From Candidatus Gastranaerophilales bacterium (lineage in GTDB: Bacteria; Cyanobacteriota; Vampirovibrionia; Gastranaerophilales; Gastranaerophilaceae): a stretch of 34,464 nt of DNA. Below the pieces are notes generated by a model. The model made no database searches. It saw only the letters and a program-made list of their open reading frames with translations, and had not been told where the DNA came from. Positions 3-19,742 of the stretch are shown one piece after another (the first letter of the stretch is position 1; each line of letters opens with the position of its first letter). The DNA is taken from NCBI GenBank assembly GCA_947626325.1, contig CANQRT010000002.1:1-34464 (forward strand), given 5' to 3'. Both the position numbers and the translations under genes were made by a program.

Positions 3-368
3 GCTATAGGTGTGTGTATGATAGAAAAACATTTTACCCTTGATAAAAATATGCAAGGCCCTGATCATAAGGCTTCTATTAACCCTGAAGAATTAATTTT
101 ACTTTGCGAAAACGTAAGGCGAATTGAAAAAATGCTGGGCTGCGGAAAAAAAGTAGTTACTGAGTCGGAAGAAAAAAATAAAATCGCGGCAAGAAAATCT
201 ATTGTAGCAAAATGCGATATAAAAAAAGGAGAAATATTAACTACTAAAAATATTACGGTTAAGCGTCCAGGGAATGGTATTAGTCCTATGAAGTGGTATG
301 AAATACTGGGTAAAAAGGCTGAAAAAGATTTTAAAGAAGATGAGCTTATTACAGTGGAGGGGTTATAA
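3..368 (+). CDS. neuB: N-acetylneuraminate/nonulosonic acid synthase (NeuB family), C-terminal part including SAF domain; 5' end outside window
   Basis: Reading frame open from the window edge: AIGVCMIEKHFTLDKNMQGPDHKASINPEEL is the typical NeuB barrel end; the IAARKSIVA.CDIKKGEILTTKNITVKRPGNGISP SAF segment follows. Adjacent to neuC. Confidence 0.9.
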   Translation, partial: AIGVCMIEKHFTLDKNMQGPDHKASINPEELILLCENVRRIEKMLGCGKKVVTESEEKNKIAARKSIVAKCDIKKGEILTTKNITVKRPGNGISPMKWYEILGKKAEKDFKEDELITVEGL

Positions 369-1089
369 TGCTTTTTAAATATTATTGTTATACTATTTGG
401 AACGGTTTTATACAAATTATGTCTTATATAATACCAACACAAAAGGCTAAAAATGCTTTTATTCAAAAGTTAAATGTTCCAAGAAAACTTGTAATAAAAG
501 AAACAGTTAAAAAAATTATAAAAGACAAAATGCCGATTTTAAAAAATACTGCAAATGATACTAATACGGTTTGTCTTATCGGGCACTCGCAATTTCATAA
601 ATGGGATATAGAAGAACTTTTTGGCTTAAAGGTTAGAAATTGCGGAGTTAACGGAATTTCAATGGTAGAGTATCGTGAGCAGATTTTAGAAAAAAATCTA
701 TTAAACTGCAATTCAAAAATATATATAATTTTTGGCGGAACAAACGATATAGTGTATGATAGAACCCCTCAGCAAATATTAGAGGAGTTAAAAATACTTG
801 TTAATTACATAAAATCCAATGGGGGGGGAACAGGCAATGTTTACGTATTTATTATATAGCTACATTAAATGTCAATAACAGGCAGGATAGAGATAATAAT
901 GTTATAAACGAGCTTAATTCATATATAAAAGCAAATTTTCCTGACGATGTAAAATACATATCGGGAGATGAAATGAATGATGAAAATGGCAATATAAAGC
1001 CTGAATACACTATAGACGGTCTACATTTAAGCTCTTTAGGTTATGAAAAACTAAAAGAGATATTGGAAAAAAATATATGCAGCAATTAA
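368..1089 (+). CDS. SGNH/GDSL-type hydrolase, interrupted by a frameshift at a G8 tract (821-828); as sequenced it stops at 859
   Basis: Frame 1 part (368-859) carries CLIGHSQFHKWDIEEL and IYIIFGGTNDIVYDR (GxxND block). A second frame resumes after the tract, ...YYIATLNVNNRQDRDNNVINELNSYIK...YTIDGLHLSSLGYEKLKEILEKNICSN* (DGxHxS block), ending at 1089. Adding one G (G9) or removing two (G6) fuses the two frames. Confidence 0.8.
821..828 (+). repeat. Poly-G (G8) mononucleotide tract inside the SGNH hydrolase gene
   Basis: Direct read: aaatccaat GGGGGGGG aacaggc; an unusually long G run in AT-rich sequence. Confidence 0.95.
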
Positions 1090-2231
1090 AAAAAATAGCT
1101 TACATTACAGGTTCTCGTGCGGATTACGGGATAGTCAGAAGATATCTTAAACTTTTAAACCATGATAAAACAATTGATTTAAGAATAATTACAACAGGTG
1201 CGCTGTTATCTAATACATACGGACATCAGGTGGATTTAATAAAAAACGACGGATTTAAAATTGATGCTGAAATTTGCGTTCCTCTTAATTCTAATAAAGT
1301 ATCCGAGACCATAAAAACAATGGCAATAGCACTTAATAAAGCAGGAGATTGGTTTGAAAATAACAAATATGACCTTGTAATACTATTGGGTGACAGGTTT
1401 GAAATAATGTCTTTTGCAATAGCAGCAGCCATGCATAAACTTCCAATACTGCATTTGCACGGCGGAGAGGCTACTTATGCAAATTATGATGAATTTATTC
1501 GCCATTCAATTACTAAAATGAGCCTTTATCATTTTGCTTCTTGTGATAAGTATGCAAAAAGAATAGTTCAGCTTGGTGAAAATCCTAATAATGTATTTAA
1601 CTTAGGTGCTTTAGGAGCAGAAAATTGCTTGTTTATTGAGGAAAACAATGTTCCTAAGAATATAAAAGATTTAAAAAATTACTTTACGGTGCTTTTTCAT
1701 CCCGAAACACTTACTAATGTTAATCCGCTTGAGCAAATAAATGAGGTTTTATGTGCTATTCAGAAGTTTAAAAATTATAACTTTATCTTTTTAGGTTCAA
1801 ACGCTGATACATATTCTGACGTTATAAGAGGCAGAATTAAAGATTTTATAAAAAACAACTCTAACACTAAATATATAGAAAATTTGCCTACCTCGGGATA
1901 TCATTATTTATTAAAAAATTCGATATGTTTAATCGGCAATTCGTCATCAGGTATTATAGAAGCTCCATCTTTAGGTGTTTATACGATAAATATAGGCGAT
2001 AGACAAAAAGGAAGAATAAAAGGTAACAGCATAATTGATACTAAATGTAATTGTGAAGATATAATTCAGGCTATTTTAACTGTGCTTGATAACTCAAAAA
2101 ATATTAAGCCGATAAATCCATACTATAAGCCAAATACCGCTGAGGCATATTACAAAAAAACTCTTGAACTTTTAAAAAAGTTAAATAAAGATACAAAAGA
2201 ACCAAAAATATTTTACGATATTGACTTATAA
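1077..2231 (+). CDS. neuC: UDP-N-acetylglucosamine 2-epimerase, hydrolysing (NeuC/NnaA family)
   Basis: IAYITGSRADYGIVRRYLKLL, LVILLGDRFEIMSFAIAAAMHKLPILHLHGGE, CLIGNSSSGIIEAPSLGVYTINIGDRQKGRIKGNSII are hallmark NeuC blocks. Overlaps the 3' end of the SGNH frame. Confidence 0.95.
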   Translation: MQQLKKIAYITGSRADYGIVRRYLKLLNHDKTIDLRIITTGALLSNTYGHQVDLIKNDGFKIDAEICVPLNSNKVSETIKTMAIALNKAGDWFENNKYDLVILLGDRFEIMSFAIAAAMHKLPILHLHGGEATYANYDEFIRHSITKMSLYHFASCDKYAKRIVQLGENPNNVFNLGALGAENCLFIEENNVPKNIKDLKNYFTVLFHPETLTNVNPLEQINEVLCAIQKFKNYNFIFLGSNADTYSDVIRGRIKDFIKNNSNTKYIENLPTSGYHYLLKNSICLIGNSSSGIIEAPSLGVYTINIGDRQKGRIKGNSIIDTKCNCEDIIQAILTVLDNSKNIKPINPYYKPNTAEAYYKKTLELLKKLNKDTKEPKIFYDIDL

Positions 2232-2945: not shown

Positions 2946-4382
2946 ATGTTAACATTTATATTTGGATTATTTATTTTATTTATCGGATATATCTTTTATT
3001 CAAGATATACCGAGAAGTGCTTTGGTATTACTAAAGATGACACTCCTGCTATTAAAATTAATGACGGCGTGGATTTTGTTCCGCTTTCAAAACGGAAAAA
3101 TATGCTTATACATTTGCTGAATATTGCAGGGCTCGGGCCTATTTTAGGTGCTATTCAGGGAATATTATTCGGGCCTGTTGCTTTTATATTAATCCCTTTA
3201 GGGTGTGTATTTATGGGCGGAGTGCATGATTATTTTTCAGGCATGTTATCTGTTCGTAATGACGGAGCTCAAATAACTGAGCTTATTAAAAAATATTTAG
3301 GCAAAGGTATGTATGTGTTTTTCATTATTGTTGTTAGTATTATGCTTTTGCTTTTGGCATCGGTTTTTGTGTATACAGCAGGTGATTTAACAGCAGAGCG
3401 ATTTTTTGCACAATCCGATTTTTCGCTGAATAATCCTGTTATTATAACAATATATGCGATTATTGCACTTTATTACATTTTAGCTACGCTTTTTCCAATT
3501 GATAAAATAATAGGCAGGTTTTATCCTGTATTCGGGCTTTTACTTTTAACTGGAACGGCGCTTGTTGTGTTAGGTTTTATTACCAAAGGAGTGCATTTAC
3601 AAAATATTGATTTTAATGCATTAAATCAACACCCGATGAAGGTGCATATACTGCCAATGTTTTTTATGACAGTAAGCTGCGGGCTGTTATCGGGGTTTCA
3701 TTCTACTCAATCCACTATTATTTCAAGGACAATAACAAGTGAAAAAGACGGCAGGCAGGTCTTTTACGGGATGATGTGCTTGGAGTCTTTAATTGCTATG
3801 GTTTGGGCTGCGGGTGCTATGCATGTTTATTCGTTAAATCTTGTTCCCAGTGCTATGGTGGGGAGCGTTAATGTTATTAATTCTATTGCAGATGTCTTTG
3901 TATTCCCTGCTCTGGCTTTTATTGTAACAATTGCCGTTGTGGTTCTTCCCATAACTTCTGGTGATACTGCTCTTCGCGGACTTAGAATGATTTTAGGCGA
4001 GACCTTTCATTTATCTCAGGCTCAAATTAAAAATAGACTTTTAATTATTATTCCTATTGCTTTTATAATTATTTCTGTAATCCTTTGGGCAAAATCAAAT
4101 GAGGGCAGTTTTGCTCTTGTTTGGAGATATTTTAACTTCGTTAATCAACTAATAGCGGTTCCGACATTTTTATATGCTTCGGTATTTCTTTATAAACGCG
4201 GTAAAAACTATTTTATGACCTTAATTCCTGGGTTGTTTTACATATTTATAACTTCCTTTTTTATCTTAAATTCAAAAATAGGATTTAATTTAGATTATAA
4301 AATTTCTAAAATAAGCGCAATTATAGTAACTTTTATAAGTTTATTTTTTATTTTCCGACTTTTACGCGAAGAGCGAAATTAA
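2946..4382 (+). CDS. cstA: CstA-family carbon starvation / peptide transporter
   Basis: DGVDFVPLSKRKNMLIHLLNIAGLGPILGAIQG..., many TM segments, GLLSGFHSTQSTIISRTITSEKDGRQVFYGMM. Confidence 0.9.
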   Translation: MLTFIFGLFILFIGYIFYSRYTEKCFGITKDDTPAIKINDGVDFVPLSKRKNMLIHLLNIAGLGPILGAIQGILFGPVAFILIPLGCVFMGGVHDYFSGMLSVRNDGAQITELIKKYLGKGMYVFFIIVVSIMLLLLASVFVYTAGDLTAERFFAQSDFSLNNPVIITIYAIIALYYILATLFPIDKIIGRFYPVFGLLLLTGTALVVLGFITKGVHLQNIDFNALNQHPMKVHILPMFFMTVSCGLLSGFHSTQSTIISRTITSEKDGRQVFYGMMCLESLIAMVWAAGAMHVYSLNLVPSAMVGSVNVINSIADVFVFPALAFIVTIAVVVLPITSGDTALRGLRMILGETFHLSQAQIKNRLLIIIPIAFIIISVILWAKSNEGSFALVWRYFNFVNQLIAVPTFLYASVFLYKRGKNYFMTLIPGLFYIFITSFFILNSKIGFNLDYKISKISAIIVTFISLFFIFRLLREERN

Positions 4383-6917
4383 TACCGACACCGTTCCTGC
4401 CGCCATGCGTAACATAAGTTTGAGTAAAACCTGAAAATCTTTCGCCCCATATTTTTCTAATACCTGCCCCGTATAATACAAAGGGTTTAACGCTTAAAGC
4501 TGGAATTGTTATATCATTTGCCGTAATTTTTGCTTTATCTGCAATATTCCAAACAAAATATGCACTTATGTAAGGCTGCCAGTGATTTTTAAGGTTTCCG
4601 AAAAGCTGAACTCCTGGTGCTACTTGCATTGCTTGTAACGGAGCAGTGTCTATGTACACATTAGCTGCATTTTTATAATTAAATGTGTTTACTAGAGTGT
4701 ATGACATAAGATAGTTTGGCTGAATAATAAATCGTCCCTCGTTTAATTCAAAATTGTAACCTGTTTTAGAAGCAACACCTGTCATAAACATACCAAAATT
4801 TTCACTGCCGTACATTGTATTTGCTTCACACCCGTTGGAGCTTACATTTGCTGTTAACCCTGTAAAAAAATTATTTTTATATGCCATGGCAACAGCACCT
4901 ATTGTTCCTCCGTTTTGGTAAATACTATTGCCGTTAAAGGCTTGGTGTGATCCGTTATAGGCAAAATATGGCCCCATACCAAGTTCCAATTCCTTTTTAG
5001 CGTAATTACATCGGACTCTAATCCCAAAAAAGAACCGTAAGCTACATTTGATACCCTTACTCCGTTTTTTAACGGTACTCTTTCAAGTATTGTATAAGGT
5101 CGAAACCAAGCGCATTTATTGTCGATTTGTTCTATTTGCGAGGTTAATATTCTGCCTTCTGCCGCATATCTGTTGCGGAATTTTAATGAAAGTCTTTCTT
5201 TATTAGTTAAAAGCATATACATATCCATTTTCCTAAATGCTTCTTCATAAGAATTTAATTGAGTTAAATAACCACCCAATTGTGCTGCTACTTGTGATAC
5301 ATATATAGCAGGGTTATAAATATCAGCGCCCTCAAGCCTTTCAAAAACAATTAAACCGTTTGCTTTGTCGTAATACGTATGATATTTATAAACTGGAGAA
5401 TTAACAACATCACCTGCCGTGTAAATTATTGCATCTTTTAATAATTCATATACACTTTGCTCGGTTTCATCGCTTATCGGTGCTACTGTAAATCGCTTTA
5501 CATCCGTTGTTGTCATTAGTTTTATATCTGATATATCAATATTAAAGCCGTTAGAATTAAATGAATTTGCGCTAAAGGTATCAACTGTCGGTTCTTCAAA
5601 ACTGCCGTCAAGCTTTAAGTCCATATTTTTGTGCAGTGTTAAATTCCCAAAATTTGTATTATGAATACTATCATCTCTTAAATCAACAGTTCCGCCGTAG
5701 TAGTTAAAATCAACAGTATTATCAAAATTGCCATAACTTGCGCCGTCTGAACTTTGAATTGGCTTTAATACTCCGCCGTACATATTTATTGTATTTCCCG
5801 ATACTTCGTTAGTTAATATAACATTTCCACTTCCGTTTTGATTAATATTTATATTTGAATTCTTGTAATAACTTGTATTTCCGCCTGATATTTTATCGTT
5901 AATAGTAATATCATAAGCGCCTGCATTAAGATATACTGTGCCGTTATCGTTATGTATAGCGTTAGAGCCTGTCATATCAGTGTTGCCTGAAAATGTTATT
6001 TCGCGCTCATCAGATGTCAAGTTAATTGTGCCTCCAAAATTGTAAATAGCTCCGCCCCTGCCTTGAGAGGTGTTATTTTCAAAATTTCCCGATAATTTAT
6101 TAATACGGCCGTAGTTCATAATAGCTCCGCCACCTATGTAGTCCCCGCTTTCTGTCGTCTTATTACCTTTAAAATCCCCTTTAATACTATCTATAGTACC
6201 TAAATTCATAATAGCTCCACCGCCTGCAGCGGCAGAATTTTCTTCAAAACTGCTCTCTATTTTTCCCATGTTTGCATAATTATATATAGCACCGCCTATT
6301 CCCTCATGAGATTGATTGCCTTTAAAATAAGCATTTGTTTCTTTAATATTGCCAAAATTACATATTGCTCCGCCTGTGCTTTTTTCCGTGGAGTTATTGT
6401 TAAAACTTCCTGAGAGTGAATTTATTGTTCCGTCATTATAAATAGCTCCTCCGTTATTATATGCGCTGTTATTATTAAACTCCCCCTTTACTTCCCCAAT
6501 ATTAGAACTGTTTACAACAACACCTCCATCTTCATCTGATGAGTTCTCAATAAAATTTCCGTTTAAAGTATCTATATGACAACCTGCACTGTTATTGACA
6601 ACTCCGCCCTTTTGGCTGTGAAAATCTTTTACCGTTATATCTTTTAAATTCATTGATTGATTTTCTTCCAAAATAAACCCCGAGCACCCGCAGCCGTTTA
6701 TTGTGTGACCTTGACCATTTAATGTCACACTTTTTTTAGCAGGACAGCCTATGGCACAATTTGCCTCCATATCGGAATTTAATTGTATTTCACTGTCTCC
6801 ATCTGGTACTGACAGGTTTTCTATCAGCTCATCATAATTATTTACATCGACTCCAAAAGCGGTTATTTGTATATTTAGCAAAAGAATTAGCGCTAAAATA
6901 ATTCTTTTTAACGACAT
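4348..6917 (-). CDS. Autotransporter-like outer-membrane protein AT1 with Pmp-like GGAI/FxxN passenger; frame interrupted at about 4994-4998
   Basis: Two overlapping ORFs (4899-6917 and 4348-4989) match contiguous parts of the intact paralog at 17151-19742 (GGYLTQLNSYEEAFRKMDMYML...; YNGSHQAFNGNSIYQNGGTIGAVAMAYK...GWGERFSGFTQ). Signal peptide MSLKRIILALILLLNIQITAFG. Confidence 0.8.
5990..6605 (-). repeat. Protein-level repeat array in the AT1 passenger: GGAI(Y/C/M)N ... FxxN
   Basis: GEFNNNSAYNNGGAIYNDG / GSFNNNSTEKSTGGAICNFG / AYFKGNQSHEGIGGAIYNYA / SSFEENSAAAGGGAIMNLG / GDFKGNKTTESGDYIGGGAIMNYG / GNFENNTSQGRGGAIYNFG. Confidence 0.85.
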
Positions 6918-17150: not shown

Positions 17151-19742
17151 TTATTTCTTAGCTATATATTTTTTCTCGCCAGTTGAGTTAGCGTGTTTAG
17201 GTTCAGCTTTACCCAAAGTCCATCTTAAACCAGCTTGGAACCCAACACCGCTTCTACCGCCAGCAGTAAAGAAGGTCTGGAAGAAACCAGTTAATCTTTC
17301 ACCCCAAGTTTTTCTGATACCAAAACCATATTTAACAAATGGTTTAACACTTAACTCAGGTAGTGTTGCATCAGAAGCATTAAATTCTGTTTTATCTAAA
17401 ACATTCCAAACAACACTAACACCAGCATAAGGCTGCCAGCCGTTATTTAAGTTTCCTATAAATTTCAAACCAGGTTCAAAAGCGATAGCGTGTAAAGGAT
17501 CACCATTAACTCTTATTCCAGATGAGGTTGTATAATCAAAAGTATTAACAAAAGAATAAGACATCATATAGCTTGGCTGGATAATAAATCTACCCTCAGC
17601 TAATTCCCAGTTATAACCAGTTTTAGCAGCGATACCAGACATTAATAAAGAAAAATCATCATTACCATATCTAGTATCAGCGTTAGCGATATTAGAACCA
17701 ACGTTAGCTGTAATACCAGCGAAGTAGTTATCTTTATAAGCCATACCGACTAAACCAAGAGTAGCGCCGTTTTGATAAATACCAATACCGTCATAAGCCT
17801 GGTGAGAACCGTTGTAACCCAAGTATGCACCAAACATACCGTCCCAACCGTGACCTAACTCCATAAGTTCACTTTCAGCGCCGAAGAAAGAGCCCCAAGC
17901 GACATTAGAAACTTTAGGCCCGTGATTAAGTTTAACATTTTCGAAAGTTGCATAAGGTCTAAACCAAGCAGAAGTGTTGTCGTAAGGAGTATTAGTCGGA
18001 TCAAAGACTAAGTTAGAGTCAGAAGCTGCGTATTTATTTCTATTTTTTAAAGCTTGACGTTGAGCCTTAGTCATTAACATATACATATCCATGTTGCGGA
18101 ATGCTTCATCGTAGGAATTTAACTGAGTTAAATAACCGCCGATTTGAGCAGCGATAGGAGCAGCCATAACAGCGGGGTTAAAATCATGGTAGCTGTTACC
18201 ACTTGGAGCAATTGATATTCCGTTAGAATCACTAGTTGCGGTAAACCACCTTAAAGGTGATAATACATCTTTAGAAATCCCTTCTTTAATACTTAAATCG
18301 TAGTTAACAGCGTCAGTTCCGTTAAATCCCAAAGCAGATTTAAGTTGTTTTTTAGTATAATAATGGCTTTGACTGTTCAGCGTATCAGGAATAATATTAA
18401 AGTCTTCTAAAGTTACTTGAATACCCGAAGGATTTGGACTCAATGATGCGCTGTTACCGTTTTTAAACACATCTGTTTGACCAGTTGCCATACTTAAATC
18501 AGAAGCAAGTAATGAACCGTTTGTTAAAGTAGTATGATTGCTTAAATCTTCAAATTTTCCATTAGCAGCATCCAAGCAAGAATTTTCTCCTACTGTAAAA
18601 TTATATGTTTCACCATAAGTAGTTCCTTGTCCGAGGTGAAGTTTACCGCCATTTTCCATTTTAATTGTTCCGTCAATCTTACCCTCGTTGTTAACGGTTG
18701 TTTTTTCACCTTTAATGGTTACTTCACTACCTTTATCACCTAAAGTACCTGTAGAATTAACAACAACGTTACCTTGAGTTTCTTCATTTCCGCCAATTGT
18801 ACCATTTTTTATTGTACCTGATGAATTAACAACCAAGTCGCCTGTAACTTCGCCCTCATCATTTCCAGTGTTAGTTAATTCTTGTTTTTGTAAATCTATA
18901 ACACCGCTATTATTAATTGTTGAGTTATCAAGGTCAATGCCGCCTGTAATATTACCAAAGTTATTAACTGTTGTATTACTTCCCTCTATGGATATGCTAG
19001 GTTCTTCATTAACACCGATAGTACCACCTTGGTTGTTAGTAATCACACCGCCTGTTGAATTGATTTCAGATTCTATTTTACCGCTGTTAACAACATTTCC
19101 GCCTTGGTTAAAGAGAGAACCGCTGCCGCCATCACCGCCTTTAATTGTTGCGTTAGCTTCGTTATAAATAGTACTGCCCTCTCCATTAACAACCGTACCA
19201 GAAATTTCACCCTTTGCTTCGTTATAAATAGTACCGCCGTTTTGGTTTTGGAGTCCTTTTTCTGCCCCCTCAGGTTCAATTCCGCTGTTTGTAATTTTAC
19301 CTGAGTTATGGATAACACCGCCGTCATTAAAAAGATTTCCTTTTATTTCACCTTTACTTTCACTTTCTCCACCATTAGAACCGTTATTTATAGTACCTTT
19401 GTTGGTAAACTCACCTTGTTCATTTGTTATTTTACCTTCATTATTGATGGTTCCGCCTTCTTCGTTTTTAATATAACCGTTTGTTTCGTTAGTGATTTCT
19501 CCGCCCTCTTTAACATTGAGAGTTCCGCCGTCTTTTACGTTATATCCCCCGTTATCTTTGTTTGTGGTTTTTCCTGATACATCGGTTACGCCTCCAACAT
19601 TTATAGGACCGCTGTTTGTGGTATCTCCGCCCATACTAAATCCCGCATTTGCAGGTAAAATTGAACTGTATTGAAATGCCATGCCTAAAAGCAATACTGC
19701 TATTAACACTTTTCTCTTCTTCATCTTTAATTCCTCTTTCAC
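17151..19742 (-). CDS. Autotransporter-like outer-membrane protein AT2 (likely start MKKRKV at about 19724)
   Basis: Signal peptide KKRKVLIAVLLLGMAFQYSSILPANA; Gly/Asn/Thr-rich repeat passenger (GGTINNEGKITNEQGEFTNKGTINN); C-terminal barrel PYAGVSVVWNVLDK...KPFVKYGFGIRKTWGERLTGFFQTFF..GLRWTLG. Confidence 0.88.
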   Translation of the reverse strand: MKEELKMKKRKVLIAVLLLGMAFQYSSILPANAGFSMGGDTTNSGPINVGGVTDVSGKTTNKDNGGYNVKDGGTLNVKEGGEITNETNGYIKNEEGGTINNEGKITNEQGEFTNKGTINNGSNGGESESKGEIKGNLFNDGGVIHNSGKITNSGIEPEGAEKGLQNQNGGTIYNEAKGEISGTVVNGEGSTIYNEANATIKGGDGGSGSLFNQGGNVVNSGKIESEINSTGGVITNNQGGTIGVNEEPSISIEGSNTTVNNFGNITGGIDLDNSTINNSGVIDLQKQELTNTGNDEGEVTGDLVVNSSGTIKNGTIGGNEETQGNVVVNSTGTLGDKGSEVTIKGEKTTVNNEGKIDGTIKMENGGKLHLGQGTTYGETYNFTVGENSCLDAANGKFEDLSNHTTLTNGSLLASDLSMATGQTDVFKNGNSASLSPNPSGIQVTLEDFNIIPDTLNSQSHYYTKKQLKSALGFNGTDAVNYDLSIKEGISKDVLSPLRWFTATSDSNGISIAPSGNSYHDFNPAVMAAPIAAQIGGYLTQLNSYDEAFRNMDMYMLMTKAQRQALKNRNKYAASDSNLVFDPTNTPYDNTSAWFRPYATFENVKLNHGPKVSNVAWGSFFGAESELMELGHGWDGMFGAYLGYNGSHQAYDGIGIYQNGATLGLVGMAYKDNYFAGITANVGSNIANADTRYGNDDFSLLMSGIAAKTGYNWELAEGRFIIQPSYMMSYSFVNTFDYTTSSGIRVNGDPLHAIAFEPGLKFIGNLNNGWQPYAGVSVVWNVLDKTEFNASDATLPELSVKPFVKYGFGIRKTWGERLTGFFQTFFTAGGRSGVGFQAGLRWTLGKAEPKHANSTGEKKYIAKK
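18695..19625 (-). repeat. Low-complexity T/I-x-N-x-G-x-I repeats of the AT2 passenger
   Basis: Repeated GGTIYNEAKGEISGTVVNGEGSTIYNEANATIKGG, VNNFGNITGG, INNSGVIDL, VNNEGKIDGTI. Confidence 0.75.

Follow-up and report, generated by a model that had tools for sequence, protein, structure and literature searches.

A likely poly-G switch in a putative sialate O-acetylesterase gene of Candidatus Gastranaerophilales

A run of eight G residues interrupts the gene for an SGNH hydrolase in a sialic acid cluster of an uncultured Candidatus Gastranaerophilales bacterium, and the locus raises the question of whether this gene is dead, wrongly sequenced, or held in one setting of a reversible switch. The window, meaning the whole 34,464-nucleotide stretch of DNA that was analyzed, is contig C2 of a 1.59 Mb MAG in 198 contigs, whose closest named relatives are Candidatus Gastranaerophilales MAGs with the sample label Lapin (presumably rabbit gut). 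The contig starts inside neuB (N-acetylneuraminate synthase; 3' part, 3..368, plus strand), whose product scores above cut-off for the Pfam NeuB and SAF domains and shows 87% identity to the NeuB of G028, a genome of the same genus; the G028 protein passes model TIGR03569 (NeuB_NnaB). On the other side of the SGNH gene lies neuC (hydrolysing UDP-GlcNAc 2-epimerase; 1077..2231, plus strand), which scores 395.8 bits to TIGR03568 (NeuC_NnaA), with a cut-off of 235.9. These flanking genes bear out the sialic acid cluster proposed in an initial annotation of this DNA.

Read in the frame of its start codon, the 5' part of the SGNH gene (368..859, plus strand) ends at an early TAG, 857-859, and encodes 163 aa with 86-87% identity to an intact orthologue in G028. 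This OFF product retains the nucleophile block LIGHS and the GTND block (GTNDIVYD), is missing the D-x-x-H block, and falls below the Pfam cut-off. The 3' part (829..1089, plus strand) lies one frame step out of register; the second frame is open from the tract through TAA 1087-1089, encodes DGLHLSSLGYEKL, and supplies the Asp/His block (DGLHLS) and the natural stop, which overlaps the neuC start at 1077. Between the two parts is the G8 tract, the proposed slipped-strand switch, at 821..828 on the plus strand. No further stop or frameshift occurs between the tract and the natural SGNH stop, leaving the tract as the sole lesion. The initial annotation had placed a G8 run precisely at the SGNH frame break, with GTNDIVYD upstream, the missing C-terminal block downstream in another frame, and a stop overlapping the start of neuC, and each of these features was found where it was said to be. 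Its further proposal, that G9 would rejoin the halves into one protein, is matched by the G028 orthologue, which has G9 at the same place as the window tract in an intact 240 aa open reading frame, and whose protein aligns across both parts of the window gene. Tract length alone therefore sets the frame state, broken with G8 in the window and intact with G9 in G028, with no other lesion involved.

The intact orthologue scores 48.9 bits to Pfam model Lipase_GDSL_2 (cut-off 32.9), carries GHS, GTND, and DGLH blocks, and has a flavodoxin-like predicted fold (AlphaFold model, pLDDT 82) that matches a pneumococcal PAF-acetylhydrolase-like protein and a Bacteroides vulgatus sialate O-acetylesterase with E-values of 1e-10 to 1e-8. 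The match to the latter enzyme (Bacteroides, or Phocaeicola, vulgatus; PDB 6njc, 7pzg) has a TM score of 0.62-0.66 by query length with E 1e-9 to 1e-8, and phmmer finds the same relationship at E 7.5e-5 with ~20% identity. The same domain, at ~36% identity, makes up the C-terminal half of the Rodentibacter NeuA. For group B Streptococcus, review PMC8319020 describes O-acetyl groups being added to sialic acid monomers by NeuD and removed by the esterase domain of NeuA. Given the homology to the NeuA C-terminal domain and the fold match to a sialate O-acetylesterase, the SGNH protein most likely removes O-acetyl groups; it would be a sialate O-acetylesterase, equivalent to the C-terminal domain of NeuA but encoded as a separate protein. 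The activity is one that we infer from fold and context. A role as O-acetyltransferase was considered, and is less likely than that of an esterase in view of the same phmmer, fold, and NeuA domain matches. The initial annotation, which spoke of O-acetyl-type chemistry, thus had the kind of reaction right, with removal now more likely than addition. Residues 154-156 of the model, those encoded by the tract, have pLDDT below 50 and form part of a loop that connects a helix to a strand; gain or loss of whole codons should be tolerated there.

Relatives give a fuller view of the cluster. Its order in G028 is a polysialyltransferase-like gene, neuD, neuB, SGNH, neuA, neuC. The loci of both G028 and G066 contain all of neuD, neuB, SGNH, neuA, and neuC, and the window locus only neuB, SGNH, and neuC; neuA and neuD were not found beside neuB in the window genome because the contig ends there. 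In G028, neuD (sialic acid O-acetyltransferase; L011:4329-4983) is split by G10, and the adjoining SGNH esterase gene is in frame. The neuD gene of G226 ends in G9, and the G066 cluster (L012:1637-4241) includes two polysialyltransferase-like genes, one broken at G12 and one open with G11.

The SGNH gene itself occurs in five of 383 family genomes, the window genome included, and all five copies carry a poly-G tract. Compared between species, with one genome per species, the tracts fall at two sites and have lengths of 8, 9, 9, 11, and 8, leaving two genes OFF and three ON. Between the window and G028 the residues flanking the shared tract have diverged and the tract has been retained. The tract lies near codon 26 in G066 (L012/L118; G9, in frame, ON) and in G171 (L013/L119; G11, out of frame, OFF), and near codon 29 in G226 (G8, in frame, ON). 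Homologues outside the group, from Massilimicrobiota and Rodentibacter, have no tract. Two tract sites and several lengths in a single gene demonstrate that tracts were repeatedly gained or retained, and rule against one accident. Comparison of the window and G028 genes gives a dN/dS of 0.10 for the 151 codons upstream of the tract and of 0.16 for the 79 codons downstream. By these ratios, purifying selection acts on both sides and persists on the downstream part, which goes untranslated in the present state, and the low values on either side of the break indicate that the window gene is no old pseudogene.

Taken by itself, the tract at 821-828, the one run of at least 8 in the whole window, is only weakly unusual. 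Dinucleotide shuffles of the window have a mean of 0.09 such runs, with one or more in 8 of 100. Elsewhere in the window, an autotransporter-like gene (4348-6917, minus strand) breaks into two overlapping frames within the part that encodes the beta-barrel, at ~4900-4990, near a short A run and away from any poly-G; its paralogue at 17151-19742 is intact.

Across the window genome (G000), the excess of runs over chance is decisive. In 713,507 bases (~45% of the genome), examined in stretches chosen to cover every listed run of at least 8, there are 64 G/C runs of that length against ~1.6 expected from a first-order Markov model, which predicts ~1.2 runs at length 8 and 0.4 at length 9. Counts by length are 101 at five, seven at six, none at seven, four at eight, 33 at nine, 26 at ten, and one at eleven, and A/T runs decay smoothly with length. 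Because the G/C run lengths are bimodal, with a gap at seven, base composition cannot be their source. The earlier remark that a G8 run is rare in such AT-rich DNA is therefore weak for the window alone and well founded at the scale of the genome.

A mechanical frame test places 46 of the 64 tracts within a clear ORF, 37 of them with G on the coding strand. Among these 37 sense-strand tracts, 23 are ON and 14 OFF, and state goes with length: 19 of 21 G9 tracts are ON, against 4 of 16 at other lengths (Fisher p = 8e-5). The tract genes encode glycosyltransferases of families 2 and 8, Caps_synth, DUF4422, and TupA-type ATP-grasp proteins, DegT aminotransferases, FkbM and other methyltransferases, hexapeptide acetyltransferases, radical SAM/SPASM proteins, and one outer-membrane repeat protein. 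They are mainly surface-glycan genes, unlike a background of 40 random genes, which were mostly housekeeping. A tandem pair of paralogues on contig C84 has G11 (OFF) in one member and G10 (ON) in the other. One family 2 glycosyltransferase gene contains both a G10 (L024:7412) and a G8 (L024:7467), the latter within a conserved Gly-Gly motif. Of the 92 tracts in G000 and G028 combined, 58 have C as their preceding base (p = 2.5e-20). The bias is seen for sense and antisense tracts alike, and base composition does not account for it.

Tract-rich genomes, defined by at least 20 runs of G9 or longer, make up 114 of 360 in the family, with a maximum of 176 runs, and none of 22 in other families of the order. 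Within the window's genus the number of such runs per genome ranges from 0 to 119. Tract-rich and tract-free species share this one genus, and MutS and MutL occur in both. Loss of mismatch repair was considered as a cause of the tracts and rejected: MutS is found in 54 of 58 relatives and MutL in 52 of 58, whether the genome has many tracts or few, so their loss is no source of raised mutability. A two-colour Illumina poly-G artefact was likewise rejected, as the tracts are nearly all interior to contigs, have tight lengths and coding sequence on both sides, and in some cases are conserved between independent MAGs. Runs of G9 also number in the tens in some large photosynthetic cyanobacteria, according to a count across the phylum, and our claim is therefore confined to this family, to its tract density and the genes in which the tracts lie.

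A different pattern appears in G078 (L123-L132, L143-L162), where 60 of 63 G/C runs of at least 8 are exactly G10 and 62 of 63 have C on both sides. Many of these tracts fall within the leaders of prepilin-like genes (FTLAEVL motif), and start modules and pilin bodies occur in differing combinations on either side of the tract; among pairs compared across it, 33 are similar upstream only, 54 downstream only, and 10 on both sides. All 38 out-of-frame pilin-leader tracts of length 10 are shifted by the same step. The uniform G10 could reflect truncation of length in long reads or a recombination site; A/T runs decay normally with no sign of truncation, and are too short to test it. In G033 (L133-L142), which belongs to the window's genus, poly-G runs of 9-11 likewise lie in prepilin-like leaders, with 11 of 12 scored sites out of frame. 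It is conceivable, though we consider it unlikely, that poly-G in the family is more than a leftover of chance slippage, being established and maintained by a dedicated process that has as its mark a flank characteristic of the species (a preceding C; C-G10-C in G078), and that in some species the tracts join start modules to prepilin bodies, giving a large switchable pilin repertoire.

For the window gene, the findings are best explained by a poly-G contingency locus that is OFF at G8, probably a switch for a sialate O-acetylesterase. The parsimonious mechanism would be slippage at replication, as established for the poly-G tracts of Campylobacter: the addition or loss of one G in the tract would shift the reading frame, tract lengths that join both halves would yield the full SGNH hydrolase, and G8 would yield a truncated product without the Asp/His block, which for that reason should be inactive. 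The full enzyme would strip O-acetyl groups off sialic acid monomers before their incorporation into a surface glycan, opposing NeuD, the acetyltransferase encoded in the sialic acid cluster, so that switching would alter the O-acetylated share of surface sialic acid. What the analysis shows is the tract with its frame break, orthologues in both states, selection acting on each half, tracts throughout the genome, and the fold; slippage in living cells, the esterase activity, and the effect at the surface are what we infer here. The slipped-strand phase variation suggested by the initial annotation is largely supported, by the intact G9 orthologue, the tracts in all five SGNH genes, the dN/dS values, and the tracts throughout the genome.

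It is improbable that assembly or sequencing went wrong at this homopolymer and produced a false G8, with the gene intact in the cell. The window sequence is a MAG consensus, in which G8 may be merely the commonest length or be off by one, and only 4 of the 64 tracts in G000 have length 8; however, according to PMC6321876, Illumina sequences poly-G tracts of such length accurately, and error could not yield G9-G10 runs at many loci, mainly in glycan genes, with a gap at seven. Such an error, one of two alternatives named in the initial annotation, could hold for this one tract, but it cannot explain why all five orthologues carry a tract or why run lengths are bimodal, and even if the length is off by one, the tract and the orthologues stand. 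The other alternative, a fixed pseudogene permanently inactivated by a frameshift in a G-rich loop, is quite improbable. The assembled copy cannot encode a complete protein, and a gene this rare in the family can evidently be lost; against this stand the single lesion, the dN/dS values on its two sides, the tract kept in the intact G028 gene, the independent tracts in the same gene elsewhere, and dozens more in the genome, and it is on the dN/dS values and intact orthologues that the pseudogene explanation fails. Finally, RNA polymerase or ribosome slippage (programmed frameshifting) might express the SGNH protein despite G8, at a constant low level and with no switch. Such recoding could fit G078, with its nearly uniform G10 and its 38 pilin-leader tracts all one step out. 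For the SGNH gene it is highly improbable: fixed recoding needs no length variation, whereas the orthologues differ in length and three are in frame, and state tracks length in G000 and G028, where most G9 genes are in frame.

A phase-variable esterase gene in this setting invites comparison with systems already described. NeuO of E. coli K1 is a phage-borne transferase that acts on the polymer, and its switch is a heptanucleotide repeat; here, by contrast, the gene encodes an esterase and the repeat is a poly-G tract. Through NeuO, sialic acid O-acetylation phase-varies in what is termed capsule form variation (Deszo 2005, cited in PMC8319020). The clustering of neuB, neuC, neuA, and neuD and the pairing of an SGNH-type esterase with a transferase resemble the NeuD-NeuA systems known from group B Streptococcus and from E. 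coli K1 (PMC8319020). Unlike those systems, the Gastranaerophilales clade has its esterase as a separate gene, with poly-G in both the esterase gene and neuD; the passages of PMC8319020 consulted make no mention of phase variation of NeuA or NeuD. The larger pattern is that of the phasome of Campylobacter jejuni and related species, in which poly-G lengths peak at 9 (53%) and 10 (26%) and strains have 5-81 phase-variable genes (PMC6321876). Here too an AT-rich gut bacterium has tracts that peak at 9 and 10 (33 and 26 of 64 in G000), fall mostly within ORFs with the G run in sense orientation, mainly in surface-glycan genes, and occur in mixed ON and OFF states. Set against Campylobacter, the host is a non-photosynthetic member of the Cyanobacteriota, a family genome may have up to 176 runs of G9 or longer compared with those 5-81 genes, 58 of 92 tracts follow a C, and MutS and MutL are present. 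The literature that we searched contains no report of phase variation in Gastranaerophilales, apart from a flagellin paper in which Melainabacteria are co-mentioned in passing. Poly-G contingency loci are of a known kind (PMC6321876), the phylum is new for them, and the poly-G-controlled pair of sialate esterase and transferase is distinctive.

Campylobacter and its relatives are the best-known carriers of large poly-G repertoires; those found here in uncultured gut Cyanobacteriota match or exceed theirs in scale. With the esterase and, in relatives, the opposing transferase both behind poly-G tracts, two independent switches may set the level of sialic acid O-acetylation. If the switch reading is true, these commensals would randomly diversify their surface glycans in every host, and the presence of a gene in a MAG would then not predict phenotype.
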